Shown one piece after another: positions 18,248 through 25,123 of a stretch of DNA of 64,000 nucleotides. A program made the translations under genes and the position numbers. The DNA comes from Aminobacterium mobile DSM 12262 (lineage in GTDB: Bacteria > Synergistota > Synergistia > Synergistales > Aminobacteriaceae): the NCBI RefSeq assembly GCF_000526395.1, contig NZ_JAFZ01000001.1, positions 372,001-436,000 on the forward strand, read 5' to 3'. How positions within the stretch are numbered: position 1 is the stretch's first letter; each line of letters begins with the position of its first letter. The notes below the pieces were generated by a model, which did not search any database, had not been told where the DNA came from, and saw only the letters and a list, made by a program, of their open reading frames with translations.

Positions 18248-19291
18248 TTAAATCCAATATGGTTCTTCCCATAAAGTTAATTTTTGGCCTTTGCCAGATT
18301 GTATAGCTCGATCGTAAATTTCTTTCGCTACAATAAGATCTTCAATTCCCATGCCAATAGGGTTATAAAAAATAATTTCATCATCTTTTTCTCGTGCTGC
18401 TTTGGTGCCGTTGATTATTTCTCCAATGTTGCCATGGAATCTTTCTTTTGAAAGCTCTCCGGCTAATACCATTTTTGCTACAGTTTGAATGCCTCTGTGA
18501 ATAACGGCATCCCAGTCGTCTGTAACAATTTTATGGGCTTTTCTCACCACATCGAATTCATATTCGTAATTTCCTACGTTTGAGATAAATGTTCCCGGCT
18601 CAATCCATTCTGCCTTTACAATAGGTTTTACTGTTGTAGTTGCGCTTACTATTATGTCAGCTCCTTTTAAGGCTTCAGATGCGGATTGGTACCCTCTAAT
18701 TTCAGCATCTGGAGCCTCTTCTTTTGCTTTTTCTATAAAGGCGTTAACCCTTTCCGTGGAAATATCGAACACGTGAATCCTTTGAATGCTCGGAATGGCG
18801 GTTTTTACAGCAATCATTTGAGTGTGGTTTTGAGTCCCCGCTCCGATTAAACATAGTGTTTTTGAATTTTTGCGGGCAAGGTATGCAGCGGCAACACCTG
18901 TAGCAGCTCCTGTGCGCATGGCGCTAATAATGGTGCCGTCCATAACGGCAAGGGGGAATCCTGTTTCAACATCGTTGAGGATCGTAAGAGCAGAAGCTCG
19001 TGGCATGTTGCGGAGAAGGGGGTTCATGGGTTTGCTGGCTATCCATTTTATACCGGCTATGTTCACGTCTCCTCCGATGTAGCCTGGCATGGCGTTAATA
19101 CGCCCTGTCTTTGCTTCTGAATCTGCATCACCCCAACGAAGAGCCACTTTGTCGGGTACGATTGTTTCTCCCTTGTCTTGGAGGGAGAAGAGCTTTTCTA
19201 TCTTATGCATTATCATAGCCATATTTGTAGCGCCGCAGTCGATAACATCTTGTTGTGTTAAATATAAAAACTCGACACGCTGTTGAACCAT
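18248..19291 (-). CDS. Ornithine cyclodeaminase/mu-crystallin family protein
   Basis: 347 residues. The family substrate and NAD regions are visible: INAMPGYIGG, GIKWIASKPMN, AMRTGAATGVAAAYLARK, the nucleotide motif LIGAGTQNHTQ, and GTFISNVGNYEYEFD. Members include ornithine cyclodeaminase (ornithine to proline plus ammonia), alanine dehydrogenase and other imine reductases, so the exact reaction is open. It is the last gene of an operon with an opine dehydrogenase and a TAXI-TRAP transporter, which makes breakdown of an imported N-substituted amino acid attractive. The AGGAGGG site lies 7 bases before the ATG. Confidence 0.82.
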   Translation of the reverse strand: MVQQRVEFLYLTQQDVIDCGATNMAMIMHKIEKLFSLQDKGETIVPDKVALRWGDADSEAKTGRINAMPGYIGGDVNIAGIKWIASKPMNPLLRNMPRASALTILNDVETGFPLAVMDGTIISAMRTGAATGVAAAYLARKNSKTLCLIGAGTQNHTQMIAVKTAIPSIQRIHVFDISTERVNAFIEKAKEEAPDAEIRGYQSASEALKGADIIVSATTTVKPIVKAEWIEPGTFISNVGNYEYEFDVVRKAHKIVTDDWDAVIHRGIQTVAKMVLAGELSKERFHGNIGEIINGTKAAREKDDEIIFYNPIGMGIEDLIVAKEIYDRAIQSGKGQKLTLWEEPYWI

Positions 19292-19309
19292 TGTTTTTCC
19301 CTCCTGAAT

Positions 19310-20413
19310 TTATTTTTTAAAGGGGGTGCCGTCGGTAACAAATTTTTTTAAATCGCCAAGACAAACTCCCTCAAGCTGAAGGCGTGAGAGGGTTCTTCCT
19401 TTCTCGCGATAATCTGTTTGATGAACTAAGTTGGCCAAATCAATCATGAGGTTCATTGTGGGGGTAGGGACACCTGCAATGCGGCCAAATTCTGCCAGTG
19501 GCACCAAACTCATGGGGACATCTTCAGAAATATACCTGGCAAAGGGATCTTTAGGTGCTTCAATGCCTCGGTAGCTTTCTTGTTTTTGCACGGCTTCATA
19601 AATAGACGTTCCACTCATATGGGGAATTTCGTATACGTCTTCCAGCCATTCAATGCATGTCATAGTTTTTACGCCCAGAGTATCTGCTATGGCGACTCGT
19701 TCCGCGTCTATTCTCTCCAAGACGTTGCTGACGCAAGGTGTAATGCCGTCCATGTAGTATTCGAAAAGCTCTTTCCCTTCTATTCGAGCGATATTCAGCA
19801 GAGCAGGGGTTGGGTGGAAAATGGCGCCAATGTTGAGGAAGCTTGTTTCAAGTACATTCTCAGCGGCAATGAACTGGGGGAAGTAAGGTTTCAGTTCCTC
19901 AAGTATCTCTGGTGTTTTATAAGCAGGCAGGGCGGCAAGTGCCATCTCTTTTTTTACTTTGTAAATGGTTGCTTCCGCCAAACCTGTTTTGCGGCAGGCA
20001 TAGATGAGAGATTGAGTTTCTGCCACAACAAAATTAGCGTTGGGATAAGTGCTTTTGACAGTCATGTAAAATTCTATGGCTCCAGCTGTACGTCCGGGGT
20101 TTAATATTATTTTTTGTCCAGATGTTAAATAAGGGGCCATCTTTTGGGCAAGTTCTCTGTGTGCAAAGGCTGGAGTTACTATTAAAATAACATTGCATCC
20201 ATCGATGGCTTCTTCAATGTGGGTTGTTATGGTTTTAAATTCAGCAAAGCCAGTGGATGAAACACCTTTTAACATAACCCCGCCAGCTTTTTTAACATCT
20301 TCTATAGCGGCTGGAAATTTGTCAAAGATATTGACGTGGCACCCTTTTAAAGACAGGAAAGCACCCATGCTTAATCCACCATTTCCAGCACCAAGTACAG
20401 CGACCTTATTCAA
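19310..20413 (-). CDS. NAD/NADP octopine/nopaline dehydrogenase family protein
   Basis: 367 residues. The N-terminal Rossmann motif AVLGAGNGGLSMGAFL is followed by ILNPGRTAGAIEF, an ETQSLIYACR segment, and the helical C-terminal domain with NIGAIFHPTPALLN, the region holding the conserved catalytic histidine of the opine dehydrogenase family. Such enzymes reversibly join an amino acid and a 2-oxo acid, or oxidise such opines. The TTG start has GAGGTG 8 bases upstream and overlaps the 3' end of the TRAP permease gene. The substrate is unknown; context suggests a breakdown role. Confidence 0.82.
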   Translation of the reverse strand: MNKVAVLGAGNGGLSMGAFLSLKGCHVNIFDKFPAAIEDVKKAGGVMLKGVSSTGFAEFKTITTHIEEAIDGCNVILIVTPAFAHRELAQKMAPYLTSGQKIILNPGRTAGAIEFYMTVKSTYPNANFVVAETQSLIYACRKTGLAEATIYKVKKEMALAALPAYKTPEILEELKPYFPQFIAAENVLETSFLNIGAIFHPTPALLNIARIEGKELFEYYMDGITPCVSNVLERIDAERVAIADTLGVKTMTCIEWLEDVYEIPHMSGTSIYEAVQKQESYRGIEAPKDPFARYISEDVPMSLVPLAEFGRIAGVPTPTMNLMIDLANLVHQTDYREKGRTLSRLQLEGVCLGDLKKFVTDGTPFKK

Positions 20414-22367
20414 GAAAATTCACCTCGTCTTTAGATGCAAGTTTTTTCTTTTTTGTAATTAATTGATATAAAAGAATAGTTGATAACAGAACCAGGCCGA
20501 AAAGATCCCCAATCAAGCCGGGATCTATGAGGAGTATTGCTGCTACTCCAGATACAAGTCGTAAGGGAAGAGAAAGAGACCCTATAAGGTAGCCTTCCAG
20601 GCAAGCGGAAAGAGCTACAACACCTATTGTGGCAGTAACAGTAGCGACGGTAGCTGCTCCAATTGTTGTATCGAGTAATAATATTCTGGGAGACAGGGCG
20701 AAGATGAAGGGCAAAATAAAGGCTGAAGAAGAAAGTTTCAGGCCTTGCAGAGCTGTTTTTACAGAGTCAGCTTTTGCAATAGCTGCTGCGAGGTAGGAAC
20801 TCAGAGCTACAGGAGGCGTAACAGATGCCATGCATCCGAAGTAGAAGATGAAAAGGTGAGCGGCCACTATTGGAACGTTCATTTTTACGAGGGCAGGGGC
20901 TACCATGGATCCTAAAATAATGTAAAGTGCTGTAGTAGGCATGCCCATTCCCATAATAATAGATGCCACCATTGTCAGGATAAGGGCCGGGTAAAGTTGC
21001 CCTCGTGACAATACGATAATGAAATCGGCGAATTTGAGGCCTAAGCCTGTTAAAGTGACGGTTCCTACAATAAGGCCTGCTACGGCGCAAGCTGCAATAA
21101 CACTGAGAGATCCTCGTGCTCCTAGGTCAAGAGCTCGCAGGAAAGATGTAAGAGTGAGTCGTGTGGATTTTCTGAAAGAGCTGGTTATGATAACGATCAG
21201 CACCGCTGTGACAGATGCTTTTATAGGCGAATATCCGGCTAAGAGCATATAGACGATGCTGAGGGGAGCTAACAAGAGAAAGGCTCCATCTTTAAAGACT
21301 TTTGAGAAAACGGGAAGTTCGCTTTTGTTCATCCCATGAAGCCCGAGTTTTGCAGCTTCCATGTCCACCATAATAAAAACGGCAACATAGTATAAAATAG
21401 CGGGAATAGCGGCATGGACGATAAGCTGACCGTAAGGAACTCCTGTCATTTCGGCCATAATAAAAGCAGCAGCCCCCATAATGGGAGGCATAATTTGTCC
21501 GCCTGTAGAGGCTGAGGCCTCAACTCCTCCAGCGAACTCAGGCGTGTATCCTACGCTTTTCATAAGGGGTATGGTGAATGTTCCTGTTCCAGCTACATTT
21601 GCAAAGGAACTGCCAGAAATAGTTCCCATAAGGCCGCTTGCGACTACTGCTGCTTTAGCTGGCCCTCCGCGAAAACGTCCTGTAATTGAAAATGCCAGGT
21701 CTATAAAGGCCTGAGCTCCGCCTGTTTCTGTAAGGAAAGAGCCGAGAAGGATGAAGATGAATACAAACGTTGCTGTAACGTATATGGCGACGCCGTAAAT
21801 TCCTTCGCTTGTTAAGAACATGTGTTCTATAACCCGGCTTACCTCATACTGACGGTGTCCTAATGTGCCAGGTATAAGATGCCCCAAAAAAGCGTAGAGG
21901 AGGAAGGCTACAGCTACTATAACGAGGGGCCATCCCATGGTTCGGCGGGTAGCTTCTAAGACAAGCACGATCATAATGGCTCCTATAACAATATCTCTTG
22001 TAAACGGGTCTCCCATGCGGAATACGATGTTCATATAGTCTAAGCAAAGGTAGGCACCTACAGCTATACTGAAAATGATAGCGGCAATGTCCCAAAGCGG
22101 GACTTTATTTTTTTGCTTGTCTGTTGCAGGGAAAATTAAAAAAGTTAGTGCCAGTGCGAAGGCTAGATGTATAGCTCTATGTTGGAACTGGGGCAGCATG
22201 TGAACCCCTGAAGAATACATGTGATATAAAGACATGCATATAGCTAAGATGCTGCAAAGTTTAGCCGCGATGCCTGTGAGGTTTCTCTTTTTTTCAAATT
22301 TTTCGTTCAGAGCTTTTAACTTTTCTTCAGGAGTAAGATCTTCCTGTGTTTTTTTCTTGAAAAACAT
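20406..22367 (-). CDS. TRAP transporter permease, fused 4TM/12TM type
   Basis: About 653 residues with many membrane segments, matching the fused small-plus-large TRAP permease that partners TAXI binding proteins. The N-terminal part holds the DctQ-like helices, and the DctM-like part contains AVVASGLMGTISGSSFANVAGTGTF-type sequence, EASASTGGQIMPP and MGMGMPTTALYI. It imports solute with cations. The frame opens at a GTG (22376), but the ATG at 22367 sits 6 bases after GAGGTG and is preferred. The DUF1850 protein and TAXI protein upstream are its usual partners. Confidence 0.88.
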   Translation of the reverse strand: MFFKKKTQEDLTPEEKLKALNEKFEKKRNLTGIAAKLCSILAICMSLYHMYSSGVHMLPQFQHRAIHLAFALALTFLIFPATDKQKNKVPLWDIAAIIFSIAVGAYLCLDYMNIVFRMGDPFTRDIVIGAIMIVLVLEATRRTMGWPLVIVAVAFLLYAFLGHLIPGTLGHRQYEVSRVIEHMFLTSEGIYGVAIYVTATFVFIFILLGSFLTETGGAQAFIDLAFSITGRFRGGPAKAAVVASGLMGTISGSSFANVAGTGTFTIPLMKSVGYTPEFAGGVEASASTGGQIMPPIMGAAAFIMAEMTGVPYGQLIVHAAIPAILYYVAVFIMVDMEAAKLGLHGMNKSELPVFSKVFKDGAFLLLAPLSIVYMLLAGYSPIKASVTAVLIVIITSSFRKSTRLTLTSFLRALDLGARGSLSVIAACAVAGLIVGTVTLTGLGLKFADFIIVLSRGQLYPALILTMVASIIMGMGMPTTALYIILGSMVAPALVKMNVPIVAAHLFIFYFGCMASVTPPVALSSYLAAAIAKADSVKTALQGLKLSSSAFILPFIFALSPRILLLDTTIGAATVATVTATIGVVALSACLEGYLIGSLSLPLRLVSGVAAILLIDPGLIGDLFGLVLLSTILLYQLITKKKKLASKDEVNFLE

Positions 22368-22875
22368 CGGATTCACCTCGTCTCAGATACTGAAGATACG
22401 TTATTTTTTCAACGGATATATCCATGCGTTCCATGTCGTTAAAGTACTTATATAAAGGTATTTCCCTTTGTCCGCTATCTAGGAACAGGCGAGGTTCAGC
22501 TATATAGCTTATTCTGAAAGGAAGAAAATCTAAGGGGATGTCGAGACCTGAGAGAACTAAAAAGTTATCCTTGAAGTAAATAGTCGCGGCACACGTAGAA
22601 GGGACCCCCCATCCCAAATCTTGTAACTTTGTTGCTACCACATGGATACGGCCATCTTTGTGCACTTGGTAATACTCGTAAACAGGTGTTAAATGGACTG
22701 AGTGCCGAATACTCGTGGCAAAAGAGTATCCTGCAGGTATTTTATGCGTGTATAGAACTTGACCTGTCTCGTAGTTTCTTATGTCCAAAAGGAAAACAGG
22801 ACAAAAGAAAAGAAAATAGGTTAAGAGTGCTGTGTTTGAAAAAAAGAGGCTCACAAAGATGATTCTTTTCCTCAT
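22327..22875 (-). CDS. DUF1850 domain protein of TAXI-TRAP operons
   Basis: 182 residues with one N-terminal hydrophobic segment (residues 4-33). The core SIRHSVHLTPVYEYYQV followed by W-G-V-P-S and an L-P-F-R-I region fits DUF1850, a small family nearly always next to fused TRAP permeases and TAXI proteins. Its function is not known. The 3' end overlaps the permease start by about 40 bases, so the two are probably co-translated. Confidence 0.75.
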   Translation of the reverse strand: MRKRIIFVSLFFSNTALLTYFLFFCPVFLLDIRNYETGQVLYTHKIPAGYSFATSIRHSVHLTPVYEYYQVHKDGRIHVVATKLQDLGWGVPSTCAATIYFKDNFLVLSGLDIPLDFLPFRISYIAEPRLFLDSGQREIPLYKYFNDMERMDISVEKITYLQYLRRGESDVFQEKNTGRSYS

Positions 22876-22895
22876 GTTTTCACCGCCTATTGAGG

Positions 22896-22921
22896 AGAGG
22901 GGTGCCTTTACGCACCCCTCT
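22896..22921 (-). other. Intercistronic hairpin after the TAXI gene
   Basis: Perfect 10-bp inverted repeat (AGAGGGGTGC with GCACCCCTCT) around a 6-base loop, between the TAXI gene and the DUF1850 gene. There is no T run on the minus strand, so it more probably protects or partly ends the binding-protein mRNA than acts as a full terminator. Confidence 0.7.
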
Positions 22922-22937
22922 CTTGAGTTATTTTTGA

Positions 22938-23915
22938 TTACTCAATAACCCAACCAGTTATGTCTACTCCTTTTTCTGTGTAATATTTTGCGGCGCCGGA
23001 ATGAAGGGGAATAGACATGGCGCTGAGGGCGGTTTCAAACCGGATCATTTTCCCTTGGGCGTGAGAGTCGGCAACAACATCTAGGTGATCAAAGAAGGCC
23101 TTGGTAATTTGATATACGGCCTCTTCGCTAATATCTTTGCGGACAATAAGAAGGGCGGGGCTGGCTACAGCCATAGTGTCGATATCGACACCACGATATG
23201 TTCCTCCTGGAATAGTGATCATCGTGAGATATGAGCGATCTTTTAAAAAGTTTTGCATAATATCTGAATCAAGGGTAAGCAGGCTGATATCAAGGGTTGT
23301 AGAGGCATCTACTACTGCTGAAGTAGGAATTCCTGAACCAATAATGGCACAGTCGATGAGGCGGTCTTTTAATGCGGTAATAGCCTCGCCAAAGTTTAAA
23401 AACTGAGGATTAAATTTGTCGTAGCTTAGGCCGTGAGCTTCAAGAACCATTTTTGCTGTCCGTTCCGTTCCGCTTCCAGGGGCTCCTACCGCGACTTTTT
23501 TACCGGCTAAGTCATTAATGCTTTTTAGATTCGAATCTTTTAAAACAACGAACTGGAATATTTCTGGATAGAGGCATGCAATTCCGCGAATGTTATCAAC
23601 AGGTTCTTTTTCGAAGGGAGCTTGTCCACTGTAGGCGCCGTAACTTGTATTGGAAGCCCCCATTATCATTTCGACTTTCCCTTCACGAATCATTTTCAGG
23701 TTTGCTACTGAAGCACCTGTTGACTCGGCTGTAACCTCTATGTCTGGCACATATTTAGTAATAATTGAAGCAATAGCTGATCCGATAGGGTAATATGTTC
23801 CTGCTGTTCCTCCTGTCGCAAGAGAGTACCGTTCTACTGCCATAACTGAAGATGACATTCCAAGAACAAAAAACAACGTGAGAAAAACAACAAAAGCCTT
23901 TACGTGCGTTCTCAT
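22938..23915 (-). CDS. TAXI-family TRAP substrate-binding protein
   Basis: 325 residues with a signal peptide (hydrophobic residues 7-24, cleavage near SSVMA-VE). YSLATGGTAGTYYPIGSAIASII is the hallmark N-terminal stretch of TAXI proteins, and VAVGAPGSGTERTAKMVLEAHGL follows. It captures the solute in the periplasm for the fused permease. TAXI ligands are commonly glutamate or other carboxylates, but the neighbouring opine dehydrogenase gene hints at an opine. The SD is AAGGGGGA. It is the first gene of the minus-strand operon. Confidence 0.9.
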   Translation of the reverse strand: MRTHVKAFVVFLTLFFVLGMSSSVMAVERYSLATGGTAGTYYPIGSAIASIITKYVPDIEVTAESTGASVANLKMIREGKVEMIMGASNTSYGAYSGQAPFEKEPVDNIRGIACLYPEIFQFVVLKDSNLKSINDLAGKKVAVGAPGSGTERTAKMVLEAHGLSYDKFNPQFLNFGEAITALKDRLIDCAIIGSGIPTSAVVDASTTLDISLLTLDSDIMQNFLKDRSYLTMITIPGGTYRGVDIDTMAVASPALLIVRKDISEEAVYQITKAFFDHLDVVADSHAQGKMIRFETALSAMSIPLHSGAAKYYTEKGVDITGWVIE

Positions 23916-24223
23916 GCTTGTTCCCCCTTAGAGTATGATATTGTTACTTTAAAACTGCACATACATTTCGATAAATATAATCAACCCGCCGACATATAAT
24001 GCGATGTTGCTACTTTCAACTTCCAAAGAAGTCAATATATTTTTAAACCTAATCGTCTTGATATGCTGATTTATCAATCTTTTGATATTTATATACGTCA
24101 AAATAATTGAAATTGATATTTTGAAATTCACATGATACAAACTATAATTTTAGAAAGGCAGAAAGTCAACCCAATATACTGTTTATTTATTCAAGTATGC
24201 ATTATCCAATAAGGAGGAATATT
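23916..24223. promoter_or_regulatory. Divergent control region (TAXI operon / rpiR-type gene)
   Basis: A 308-base AT-rich region between two divergent operons. It holds short direct repeats: TTGAAATT at 24107-24114 and again at 24121-24128 (14-base step), and TTGATATTT at 24082-24090 and 24113-24121. Their position between a regulator gene and its likely target fits operator sites, but no binding consensus was matched. Confidence 0.4.
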
Positions 24224-25123
24224 ATGCATAATAGAAAGCAAAAAGTTTCTGTTGTGGGAGAAAACATAAAAAAGGATTTATTTGAATATATGCAGGAGGC
24301 GAGCCAAAGTTTTCCTTCTCAGCAAAAAGCTGTTTGTGACTACATTCTTGCCCATTATCAACAAACAGCTTTTATGAAGGCGGAGGATGTTGCTCTCGCT
24401 ACAAAAACGAGTACTGCCACTGTCCTTCGTACGGCGGGAAGTTTGGGGTTTAAGAGCTATACAGCCTTAAAGGAGGCGCTTCAGCAGGTTCTTTTCGCTT
24501 CAACGACACCGCCGCCTCTCGACAGACTTCGGGAAAATATAGCAGGGGATTCGGAACTAAATGTGCTCGAACAAGTTATAAAAGACAACATTCAGAGTTT
24601 GCAGGGATTATATAGCCAGCATCTGGCGGAGAGTTTTCCTCAAGCAATTCGGATTATGCAGAAAGCGTCAAGAATATATATTTTAGGGTTACGTTCAACC
24701 CGTGGCCTTGCCGTATATCTTCATGCCCTTCTTCACCAGTTGTTTAGAAATGTGTATCTTGCCGATGCCTCGGGATCTGATAATTTATTTGATGAATTAT
24801 ATGACATGACTCAAGATGACGTTTTTATCGCCTTAATGGCTGGGAGTCCTCACTATACAAAGCGGACTATTAATGCCGTGAAATATGCTCATGAGCGTTC
24901 TATTCCTGTTATATTGATCACAAATAGCCTTTCGAATGTGGCCGTTCCTTTGGCATCTGCCGCTCTCTTAGCCCCGCAGAATACAAGTCATTATTCTACG
25001 GTAACTCTCGTAACGATTATTGATGCCCTTGTTTTTCAACTTGGTCGTGTCAAGGCAGAGGACGCCCGTCCAAAGCTGGAAAACCTAGGTGACCTGTTGT
25101 TAAGAAATGATATTTCAGTTTAG
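24224..25123 (+). CDS. RpiR-family transcriptional regulator
   Basis: About 299 residues. The N-terminal helix-turn-helix of the RpiR family (FPSQQKAVCDYILAHY, then TSTATVLRTAGSLGFKSYTALKEAL) covers roughly residues 25-95. A SIS domain follows (SRIYILGLRSTRGLAVYL, then DVFIALMAGSPHYT and VILITNSLSNVAVPLA) that would sense a phosphorylated or acidic ligand. The start used has AAGGAGG 6 bases upstream; an earlier in-frame ATG at 24197 has no such site. It is divergent from the opine/TAXI operon, its probable target. Confidence 0.87.
   Translation: MHNRKQKVSVVGENIKKDLFEYMQEASQSFPSQQKAVCDYILAHYQQTAFMKAEDVALATKTSTATVLRTAGSLGFKSYTALKEALQQVLFASTTPPPLDRLRENIAGDSELNVLEQVIKDNIQSLQGLYSQHLAESFPQAIRIMQKASRIYILGLRSTRGLAVYLHALLHQLFRNVYLADASGSDNLFDELYDMTQDDVFIALMAGSPHYTKRTINAVKYAHERSIPVILITNSLSNVAVPLASAALLAPQNTSHYSTVTLVTIIDALVFQLGRVKAEDARPKLENLGDLLLRNDISV

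Follow-up and report, generated by a model that had tools for sequence, protein, structure and literature searches.

The octopine and nopaline operons of Agrobacterium combine an importer, an opine-cleaving enzyme, a gene of the ornithine cyclodeaminase (OCD) family and a regulator of their own in one cluster; in them, import is by ABC systems, opine cleavage by flavin oxidases and regulation by LysR-type proteins. Ligands are known for few transporters of the TAXI class, and in the examples cited here the ligand is glutamate: VcGluP binds L-glutamate and is glutamate-specific (PMC11574862), and Bp0403, a TAXI protein of Bordetella pertussis, also binds glutamate (PMC12344293). Here, we describe a cassette at positions 18,248 to 25,123 of a 64,000-nucleotide stretch of the genome of Aminobacterium mobile DSM 12262, an amino-acid-consuming bacterium (NZ_JAFZ01000001.1, positions 372,001 to 436,000; hereafter the window), which a sequence-only reading had interpreted as an operon for opine uptake and catabolism. 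That idea is still the best reading of the locus, and conserved residues suggest that it can be narrowed to acidic opines. We give an even chance to the proposal that the operon imports and degrades an acidic opine under the control of an RpiR-family regulator.

The list of open reading frames and Pfam/TIGRFAM profile scans confirmed six genes with the coordinates and families given in the sequence-only reading:

22938..23915, minus strand: TAXI solute-binding protein of a TRAP transporter, first gene of the operon (TIGR02122, 334 bits; PF16868, 284 bits)
22327..22875, minus strand: DUF1850 protein (PF08905, 46.9 bits)
20406..22376, minus strand: fused TRAP permease, QM (TIGR02123, 694 bits; cut-off 321)
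19310..20413, minus strand: octopine/nopaline dehydrogenase-family enzyme (ODH) with a TTG start (PF02317, 163.5 bits; cut-off 30)
18248..19291, minus strand: OCD/mu-crystallin-family enzyme, predicted NAD-type dehydrogenase, SbnB-like, last gene of the cassette (PF02423, 243 bits)
24197..25123, plus strand: MurR/RpiR-family regulator, divergent from the operon (HTH_6 PF01418, 39.3 bits; SIS PF01380, 46.1 bits; both above cut-off)

The five minus-strand genes run head to tail in the order TAXI, DUF1850, fused permease, ODH and OCD. A gap of 62 nucleotides separates TAXI from DUF1850, which overlaps the permease gene by 50 nucleotides when the GTG start is taken; the permease and ODH genes overlap by 8 nucleotides, and 18 nucleotides lie between ODH and OCD. 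From this arrangement, we infer co-transcription of all five. Coordinates, profiles and spacing thus bear out the claim that a TAXI-TRAP set lies closely spaced or overlapping with an ODH and an OCD-family gene, divergent from RpiR, and the joint presence of a TAXI binding protein and a fused QM permease identifies the transporter as TAXI-TRAP. The borders are clear, with polysaccharide-biosynthesis genes downstream of the cassette and genes for an HD-domain protein and an alkaline phosphatase beyond RpiR.

The gene-neighbourhood survey that had been proposed as a check covered 185 Synergistota genomes. ODH matches at E ≤ 0.001 occurred in 72 of them, and orthologues with at least 50% identity in 11 (G000, G003, G004, G030, G031, G119, G120, G173, G179, G180 and G181). 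TAXI orthologues with at least 61% identity were found in ten genomes and adjoined the ODH orthologue in all ten, the next-best TAXI match in any genome having 44% identity; in G181, the eleventh ODH genome, the contig begins inside the permease gene, leaving the TAXI region uncovered. OCD orthologues with at least 52% identity were likewise present in ten genomes and adjoined the ODH orthologue in every case. The five-gene order recurs in nine other Synergistota genomes, with OCD missing in one; DUF1850 and RpiR were not seen within the G004 cassette, and a second OCD and an MR/MLE enzyme are inserted in G119 and G120, where the order is otherwise kept. An RpiR-family gene lies directly upstream in eight of the nine other Synergistota cassettes with the upstream region covered (L041 is without it; that of L038 is read on the same strand and has 39% identity).

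The TAXI-DUF1850-permease-ODH-OCD set is also carried by four Clostridia metagenome-assembled genomes (MAGs; L057, L058, L060 and L061), in which two other genes stand in place of RpiR; in L057, the only pair scanned, these encode a histidine kinase with an SBP_bac_3 sensor domain and a sigma-54 response regulator. Furthermore, gene trees of TAXI, permease, ODH and OCD from 13 cassettes had seven to nine of ten splits in common pairwise, whereas 1000 label permutations (TAXI versus OCD) averaged 0.43 and never exceeded 4; common ancestry of the organisms adds to this congruence. We rejected a chance gene order, since the orthologues are always linked, the order recurs and the trees are congruent. 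Collectively, gene content, order and conservation, read directly from the sequences, establish the transporter, ODH and OCD as one conserved unit, and the cassette is real, conserved and well-bounded.

We next consider the catalytic and specificity residues, read from alignments. The best solved relative of the A. mobile ODH is ArODH/CENDH (1bg6, 276 bits), with 41% identity (126 of 308 aligned positions). Every residue tested for opine-dehydrogenase chemistry is present, namely the catalytic dyad His200/Asp298 and the active-site Trp256, and the His-Asp dyad was found in 100 of 100 ODH rows. These rows come from a locus scan with two peptide patterns, with the best 80 of 255 loci kept, and their counts are not a census; L053–L056 and L059 repeat genomes already included, and four of these were dropped before counting (104 to 100 rows), L055 being retained, as no full-length row was obtained from its first copy, L037. 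Twelve rows derive from tblastn only and carry no neighbour calls. At ArODH positions 111 and 198, the choice between Ala/Asn (as in ArODH) and Arg/Gly decides between L-Phe and L-Asp, and a double swap switches the substrate; ODHs with Arg/Gly favour L-Asp, L-Glu and their sulfonate analogues as amino-acid partners and pyruvate as the 2-oxo acid (PMC10787698). Arg108 and Gly196 of the A. mobile ODH align to these two positions and are invariant in ten aligned cassette ODHs, which predicts an acidic amino-acid moiety (L-Asp, L-Glu or a sulfonate analogue). The opine-dehydrogenase assignment is thus supported by the dyad, the Trp and the Arg/Gly pair, but the classical, arginine-based octopine and nopaline become unlikely ligands. 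Across the rows, Arg/Gly occurred in 88 of 100 and Asn/Asn in 10, the latter near DctP/DctM genes in seven cases, near TAXI in two and near neither in one.

As for the cofactor, Asp31 of the A. mobile ODH aligns to ArODH Asp34 and is followed by Lys32 (position 35). Asp occupies ArODH position 34 in 25 of the 26 Arg/Gly rows near a TAXI or GltS-like gene (the exception, L064, has Ser), and Asn occupies it in all 28 Arg/Gly rows beside a protein of about 550 residues, giving the motif N-R as opposed to D-K in A. mobile. Arg35 has been tied to NADPH use; it is present in most of the metagenomic acidic opine dehydrogenases (mODHs), and these take NADPH (PMC10787698). From these residues, the A. 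mobile ODH is predicted to be of the NAD(H) type, and the Arg/Gly ODHs appear to fall into two branches, one catabolic and of the NAD type, the other of the NADPH type.

The predicted Asp/Glu specificity also bears on opine-type metallophore recycling, in which the cassette would scavenge a zincophore-like opine, as known metallophores have histidine and aminobutyrate parts instead. We hold this to be highly improbable: ODH-family enzymes do build such metallophores, and bacterial opine zincophores have been published (PMC7438024), but transport here relies on a TRAP permease, and the family scan of the segment's proteins turned up nothing resembling nicotianamine synthase.

Two further observations concern the ODH family. 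A second A. mobile ODH (L049; G000:C1:347954-349021) has the Asn/Asn signature and adjoins serine-dehydratase-like, DctP and glycine-reductase-like (GrdE/GrdB) genes; given this signature and context, it probably acts on a different substrate from the operon ODH. Separately, a gene for a protein of 500–650 residues lies directly behind an Arg/Gly ODH in 29 loci from many phyla and belongs to one family in 28 of them (for example, L065:2303-3949, L073:10064-11695 and L118:10076-11710). This family has an N-terminal cobalamin-binding domain, with D-ornithine aminomutase E as the best solved match (E 2e-7), and the single member scanned also matched glutamate-mutase E weakly. The adjacent ODHs carry the NADPH-type N-R motif, and the pair may constitute a separate acidic-opine pathway.

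The TAXI protein has a signal peptide, with probable cleavage after ...SVMA as judged by eye, and its closest solved relatives are 1us4 and 8u79, followed by VcGluP (8s4j). Thirteen VcGluP contact positions were compared, of which six are kept (Y45, Y46, S75, E125, G156 and G203, corresponding to Y41, Y42, S69, E118, G149 and G195 in A. mobile). Gln93, Tyr200 and Met201 are replaced by Ala87, I192 and G193, and S40, V44, H123 and D157 by G, T, Y and T, respectively. In VcGluP, Gln93 contacts the glutamate amine (PMC11574862), and it is present in all three proteins compared (8s4j, 1us4 and 9ibp); with Ala87, the A. mobile protein lacks this mark of a glutamate-binding TAXI protein. Position 93 was Ala in all 16 TAXI proteins sharing a cassette with an Arg/Gly ODH; among 25 others, 11 had Gln and one, L143, next to a divergent ODH, had Ala, the remainder having Val, Met, Asp, Tyr or Ser (both counts leave out duplicate rows and an L040 TAXI fragment scoring 42 bits). 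The second A. mobile TAXI protein (L134) keeps Gln. Judging from these substitutions, the Ala87 pocket fits a glutamate-like ligand with a substituted nitrogen.

This position is also informative about a reductive alternative, an electron sink in which L-Glu or L-Asp would be imported and joined to pyruvate by ODH with NADH, the opine being excreted and OCD supplying or removing the amino acid. ODHs form opines reductively in oxygen-starved invertebrates. The glutamate-specific VcGluP is among the nearest solved TAXI relatives, the published ODH assays were run in the reductive direction (PMC10787698), and A. colombiense oxidises glutamate only with a hydrogen-consuming partner (PMC3035294), where a sink would help. 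Nevertheless, the amine-contacting Gln is lost in exactly the TAXI clade of this operon and kept in the second TAXI protein, the cassette contains no exporter gene, and an enzyme inherited together with an importer and another dehydrogenase is more in keeping with catabolism; we consider a sink unlikely.

Other TAXI clusters were also encountered. L150, L151 and L159 (in G180, G020 and G179) are RpiR-OCD-TAXI-permease clusters without ODH, and their OCDs group with SbnB. In the Lachnospiraceae MAGs L067 and L068, an Asn/Asn ODH that has a TAXI and permease of its own lies beside an Arg/Gly ODH and an MR/MLE gene.

The last gene of the cassette had been called ornithine cyclodeaminase-like, a label that holds for the Pfam family only. 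The protein scored 298 bits against the SbnB model TIGR03944, below the equivalog cut-off of 327, and 236 bits against the archaeal alanine dehydrogenase (AlaDH) model, with a cut-off of 409; a ten-sequence OCD profile gave 304 bits for SbnB versus 251 for AlaDH and pyrroline-carboxylate (P2C) reductase. AlaDH (1vll/1omo) and P2C reductase carry five extra loop residues (G-A-D-G-P-G in AlaDH), which are absent in SbnB and in the A. mobile enzyme (GNYEYEFD). In ornithine cyclodeaminase, the loop with the catalytic Asp is of the G-D-x-P-G-K-x-E-L type. With the loop absent (by comparison with AlaDH) and the protein nearer SbnB, ornithine cyclodeaminase was rejected as the last enzyme and appears an unlikely identity for it. 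In a 43-row tree, the cassette OCDs and SbnB were separated from AlaDH and P2C reductase with support of 100/99. No SbnA-like partner gene was found among the scanned open reading frames of 18,248 to 25,123. SbnB has been proposed to split an L-Ser-L-Glu conjugate into L-2,3-diaminopropionate (L-Dap) and 2-oxoglutarate (PMC3179956), and the conjugate is named in PMC12414870. By analogy, the A. mobile OCD enzyme may likewise cut an N-substituted glutamate, or it may deaminate the released amino acid.

The SbnB analogy also raises the question of non-opine secondary amines, such as an iminodisuccinate complexone or a carboxymethyl or carboxyethyl glycation product, on which ODH and OCD would act as broad secondary-amine dehydrogenases. 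The pocket residues fix the acidic moiety only, not the second part of the ligand; SbnB acts on a Glu conjugate that arises by beta-substitution and is no classical opine (PMC3179956, PMC12414870); and the MR/MLE enzymes in the G119, G120 and G180 cassettes hint at other substrates. However, the ODH lies in a clade with a characterised Asp/Glu plus pyruvate signature, with pyruvate preferred (PMC10787698), and on balance we regard a non-opine amine as improbable. The MR/MLE enolase-superfamily genes that join these three cassettes (L035:11119-12249; L036:2544-3671, by profile label only; and L040:2900-4045) encode an enzyme below all NCBIfam cut-offs, for which the nearest model is muconate cycloisomerase, followed by cis-3-hydroxyproline dehydratase and L-Ala-D/L-Glu epimerase.

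The enzymes are also found with another importer. RpiR, an Arg/Gly ODH and an OCD of a sister clade sit with a membrane protein of 460–510 residues instead of TAXI-TRAP in Oscillibacter ruminantium (L101), the Lachnospiraceae MAGs L107 and L109, and the Synergistota genomes G113, G114 and G116; in Lawsonibacter (L083), the membrane protein is present and no OCD was called. Pfam gave no credible match for this protein even at E 10, and its profile aligned with E. coli GltS at an hhalign probability of 93–95%, including the GGHGT motif, as opposed to less than 1% for the controls (XanP, a TRAP permease and 20 shuffled GltS sequences). L064 combines TAXI, an Arg/Gly ODH and the GltS-like protein. 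A TRAP transporter beside an ODH is not unique to TAXI, as DctP-type TRAP genes flank other Synergistota ODHs; a DctP-type set is also annotated next to an ODH on an Azospirillum plasmid, so this adjacency is not new in databases. Four Synergistota genomes (L047, L050, L051 and L052) contain DctQM-ODH-serine dehydratase-OCD-OCD(-DctP) clusters, with the same enzyme pair and a different TRAP class.

These data can be set against the view that the genes are mere neighbours, with TAXI carrying an unrelated carboxylate and the enzymes serving another pathway. The ligands of nearly all TAXI proteins are unknown, which leaves room for this view; against it stand the linkage of all ten TAXI orthologues in one phylum, the congruent gene trees, the copies in a second phylum and the replacement of TAXI by a different importer beside the same enzymes. 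We judge it to be very improbable.

Our preferred reading remains the uptake and breakdown of an acidic opine, for which the ligand, the direction, the OCD reaction and the regulation are inferred as follows. The TAXI protein, DUF1850 and the fused permease would import an N-(1-carboxyalkyl) derivative of L-Asp or L-Glu, a secondary amine in which the amino acid (or a sulfonate analogue) is N-joined to a 2-oxo acid, most likely pyruvate. ODH would then use NAD+ to oxidise the C-N bond on the side of the 2-oxo acid, yielding pyruvate and L-Asp or L-Glu, which Aminobacterium can ferment. The SbnB-like OCD would serve as a second NAD+ dehydrogenase that deaminates the released L-amino acid; alternatively, it may cut the opposite (S) C-N bond or act on the other diastereomer. 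The operon would be controlled by RpiR through TATCAA/TTGATA sites. The proposal draws on the conservation of the unit, the Arg/Gly pair, the NAD-type Asp, the glutamate-like TAXI relatives and the GltS-like swap, together with Ala in place of Gln93, the SbnB-like OCD and the syntrophic oxidation of glutamate and aspartate by A. colombiense (PMC3035294). The originally suggested path of import, oxidative cleavage and amino-acid use is consistent with the single unit and the opine-dehydrogenase residues, except that its last enzyme is unlikely to be an ornithine cyclodeaminase.

Several observations weigh against this proposal. The Arg/Gly pair is a trait of the whole ODH clade (88 of the 100 rows) and so does not single out the A. 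mobile operon, and many clade members adjoin a B12-type protein, not a transporter. Lys at position 35 leaves NADP use open. ODHs usually favour opine formation, and the assays mentioned above ran in the reductive direction. In the TAXI pocket, Asp157 and His123 of VcGluP are also replaced, making even an acidic ligand uncertain, and the 16 Ala-type TAXI proteins are related members of one clade, not 16 independent events. TAXI proteins beside other ODH types have Tyr or Asp at position 93 (L067 and L068; L154), and those of L154–L157 have Asp with or without an ODH nearby, so that loss of Gln93 alone is no marker of ODH linkage. Moreover, SbnB sits on a long branch in the 43-row tree, and a putative A. 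colombiense genome has no OCD beside its ODH, its best OCD elsewhere having 42% identity.

A broader proposition, which we put forward as a rather unlikely one, is that of a widespread anaerobe module: an NAD-type Arg/Gly ODH and an SbnB-like dehydrogenase would cut the two C-N bonds of one secondary amine and be served by interchangeable glutamate-family importers (Ala87 TAXI-TRAP, GltS-like, or TAXI plus GltS-like). If so, sludge and rumen communities would trade in acidic opines as a commonplace currency that has gone unrecognised, and NADPH-type Arg/Gly enzymes from other phyla may produce them.

The AlphaFold2 model of the DUF1850 protein (pLDDT 84.6) has a helix at residues 2–24 followed by strands, and the protein has one N-terminal membrane helix and a beta-rich domain that is likely periplasmic; it is a putative accessory subunit of the transporter. 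A fold search with this model returned no solved fold at E ≤ 0.001. DctM was the only Pfam match of the fused permease, and the DUF3394 'claw' was not among its matches. DUF3394, the claw of VcGluQM, aligned with Synergistota permeases over no more than its first ~53 positions out of 181, and a separate DUF1850 gene was present in 42 of 61 genomes. DUF1850 may be a detached claw.

Three further features lie in the non-coding intervals of the cassette:

24141..24169, minus strand: promoter-like site TTGACT-17-TATAGT of the TAXI operon, scan score 10/12
24072..24087, no strand assigned: palindrome TATCAATCTTTTGATA (TATCAA-N4-TTGATA), candidate RpiR operator, downstream of the operon's promoter
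22893..22924, minus strand: strong hairpin with a 13-pair stem in the gap separating the TAXI and DUF1850 genes

In three Aminobacterium genomes, GTTGAC and TAAAATTATAGT are retained at the spacing of a promoter, as is TATCAAAAGATTGATA downstream of it, with one mismatch in the putative A. colombiense genome. The promoter scan returned 13 sites versus 14.5 in shuffles, which is chance level, so the weight of the promoter derives from its conservation in the three genomes. The palindrome occurs once in the window, with 0.02 expected per mononucleotide-shuffled window. Ten RpiR-TAXI spacers contained 16 operator half-sites versus 3.6 expected, a count that none of 500 dinucleotide shuffles reached; the half-site had been chosen with three of the sequences in view, and the seven other regions held 7 occurrences versus about 2.2 expected. 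These patterns suggest indirectly that RpiR may be the switch of the operon, with the TATCAA/TTGATA sites as its candidate operator. CodY was also considered by comparison with its consensus, which led nowhere. The hairpin has a folding energy of -26.3 kcal/mol (z -5.5 versus dinucleotide shuffles); a hairpin after the TAXI stop occurs in eight of ten cassettes with at most 6 of 200 shuffles reaching the observed energy, and weaker ones are found in L040 (38 of 200) and L042 (12 of 200). It is probably an mRNA-processing or attenuation element that would allow an excess of binding protein. The promoter/terminator scan called no terminator behind the OCD gene.

Linking a TAXI transporter to an ODH with a decoded specificity pair yields a short, testable list of ligands. 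If the acidic-opine proposal is true, it would provide a non-ABC route for opine uptake, explain a subgroup of the OCD family that is easily misnamed ornithine cyclodeaminase, and suggest that anaerobic communities, far removed from plant tumours and marine animals, have acidic opines in circulation. In the open-licence PMC literature, we found no paper joining TAXI transporters to opines.

Compared with the described systems, the A. mobile ODH belongs to the same family as the mODHs and ArODH/CENDH (1bg6), with the His-Asp dyad of both and the Arg/Gly pair of the former; the mODHs were assayed as synthetic catalysts, with no operon described for them in the excerpt of the article, and mostly have Arg35 and use NADPH, whereas the A. 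mobile enzyme has Asp31-Lys32 and sits with an importer (PMC10787698). The transporter shares the TAXI protein and fused permease of VcGluP/VcGluQM and keeps most backbone-contact positions as well as S75, Y45 and E125 (PMC11574862), but Gln93, Tyr200 and Met201 are replaced, DUF1850 is separate, and no DUF3394 claw was found in the A. mobile permease. The TAXI-GltS pair of Bordetella pertussis joins TAXI to a glutamate-type symporter, recalling the TAXI, ODH and GltS-like combination of L064; A. mobile instead uses a TRAP permease, and the excerpt of that article states no opine link (PMC12344293). SbnB (4m54), of staphyloferrin B synthesis, has the same OCD fold without the AlaDH/P2C-reductase loop, is closest by profile and falls in one clade with the A. 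mobile enzyme, which differs in scoring below the family cut-off, in having no SbnA partner, in its catabolic-looking context and in an extra C-terminal LW..P.W motif. Finally, where the opine operons of Agrobacterium have ABC importers, flavin oxidases and LysR-type regulators, A. mobile has TAXI-TRAP, an ODH of the predicted NAD type and RpiR.

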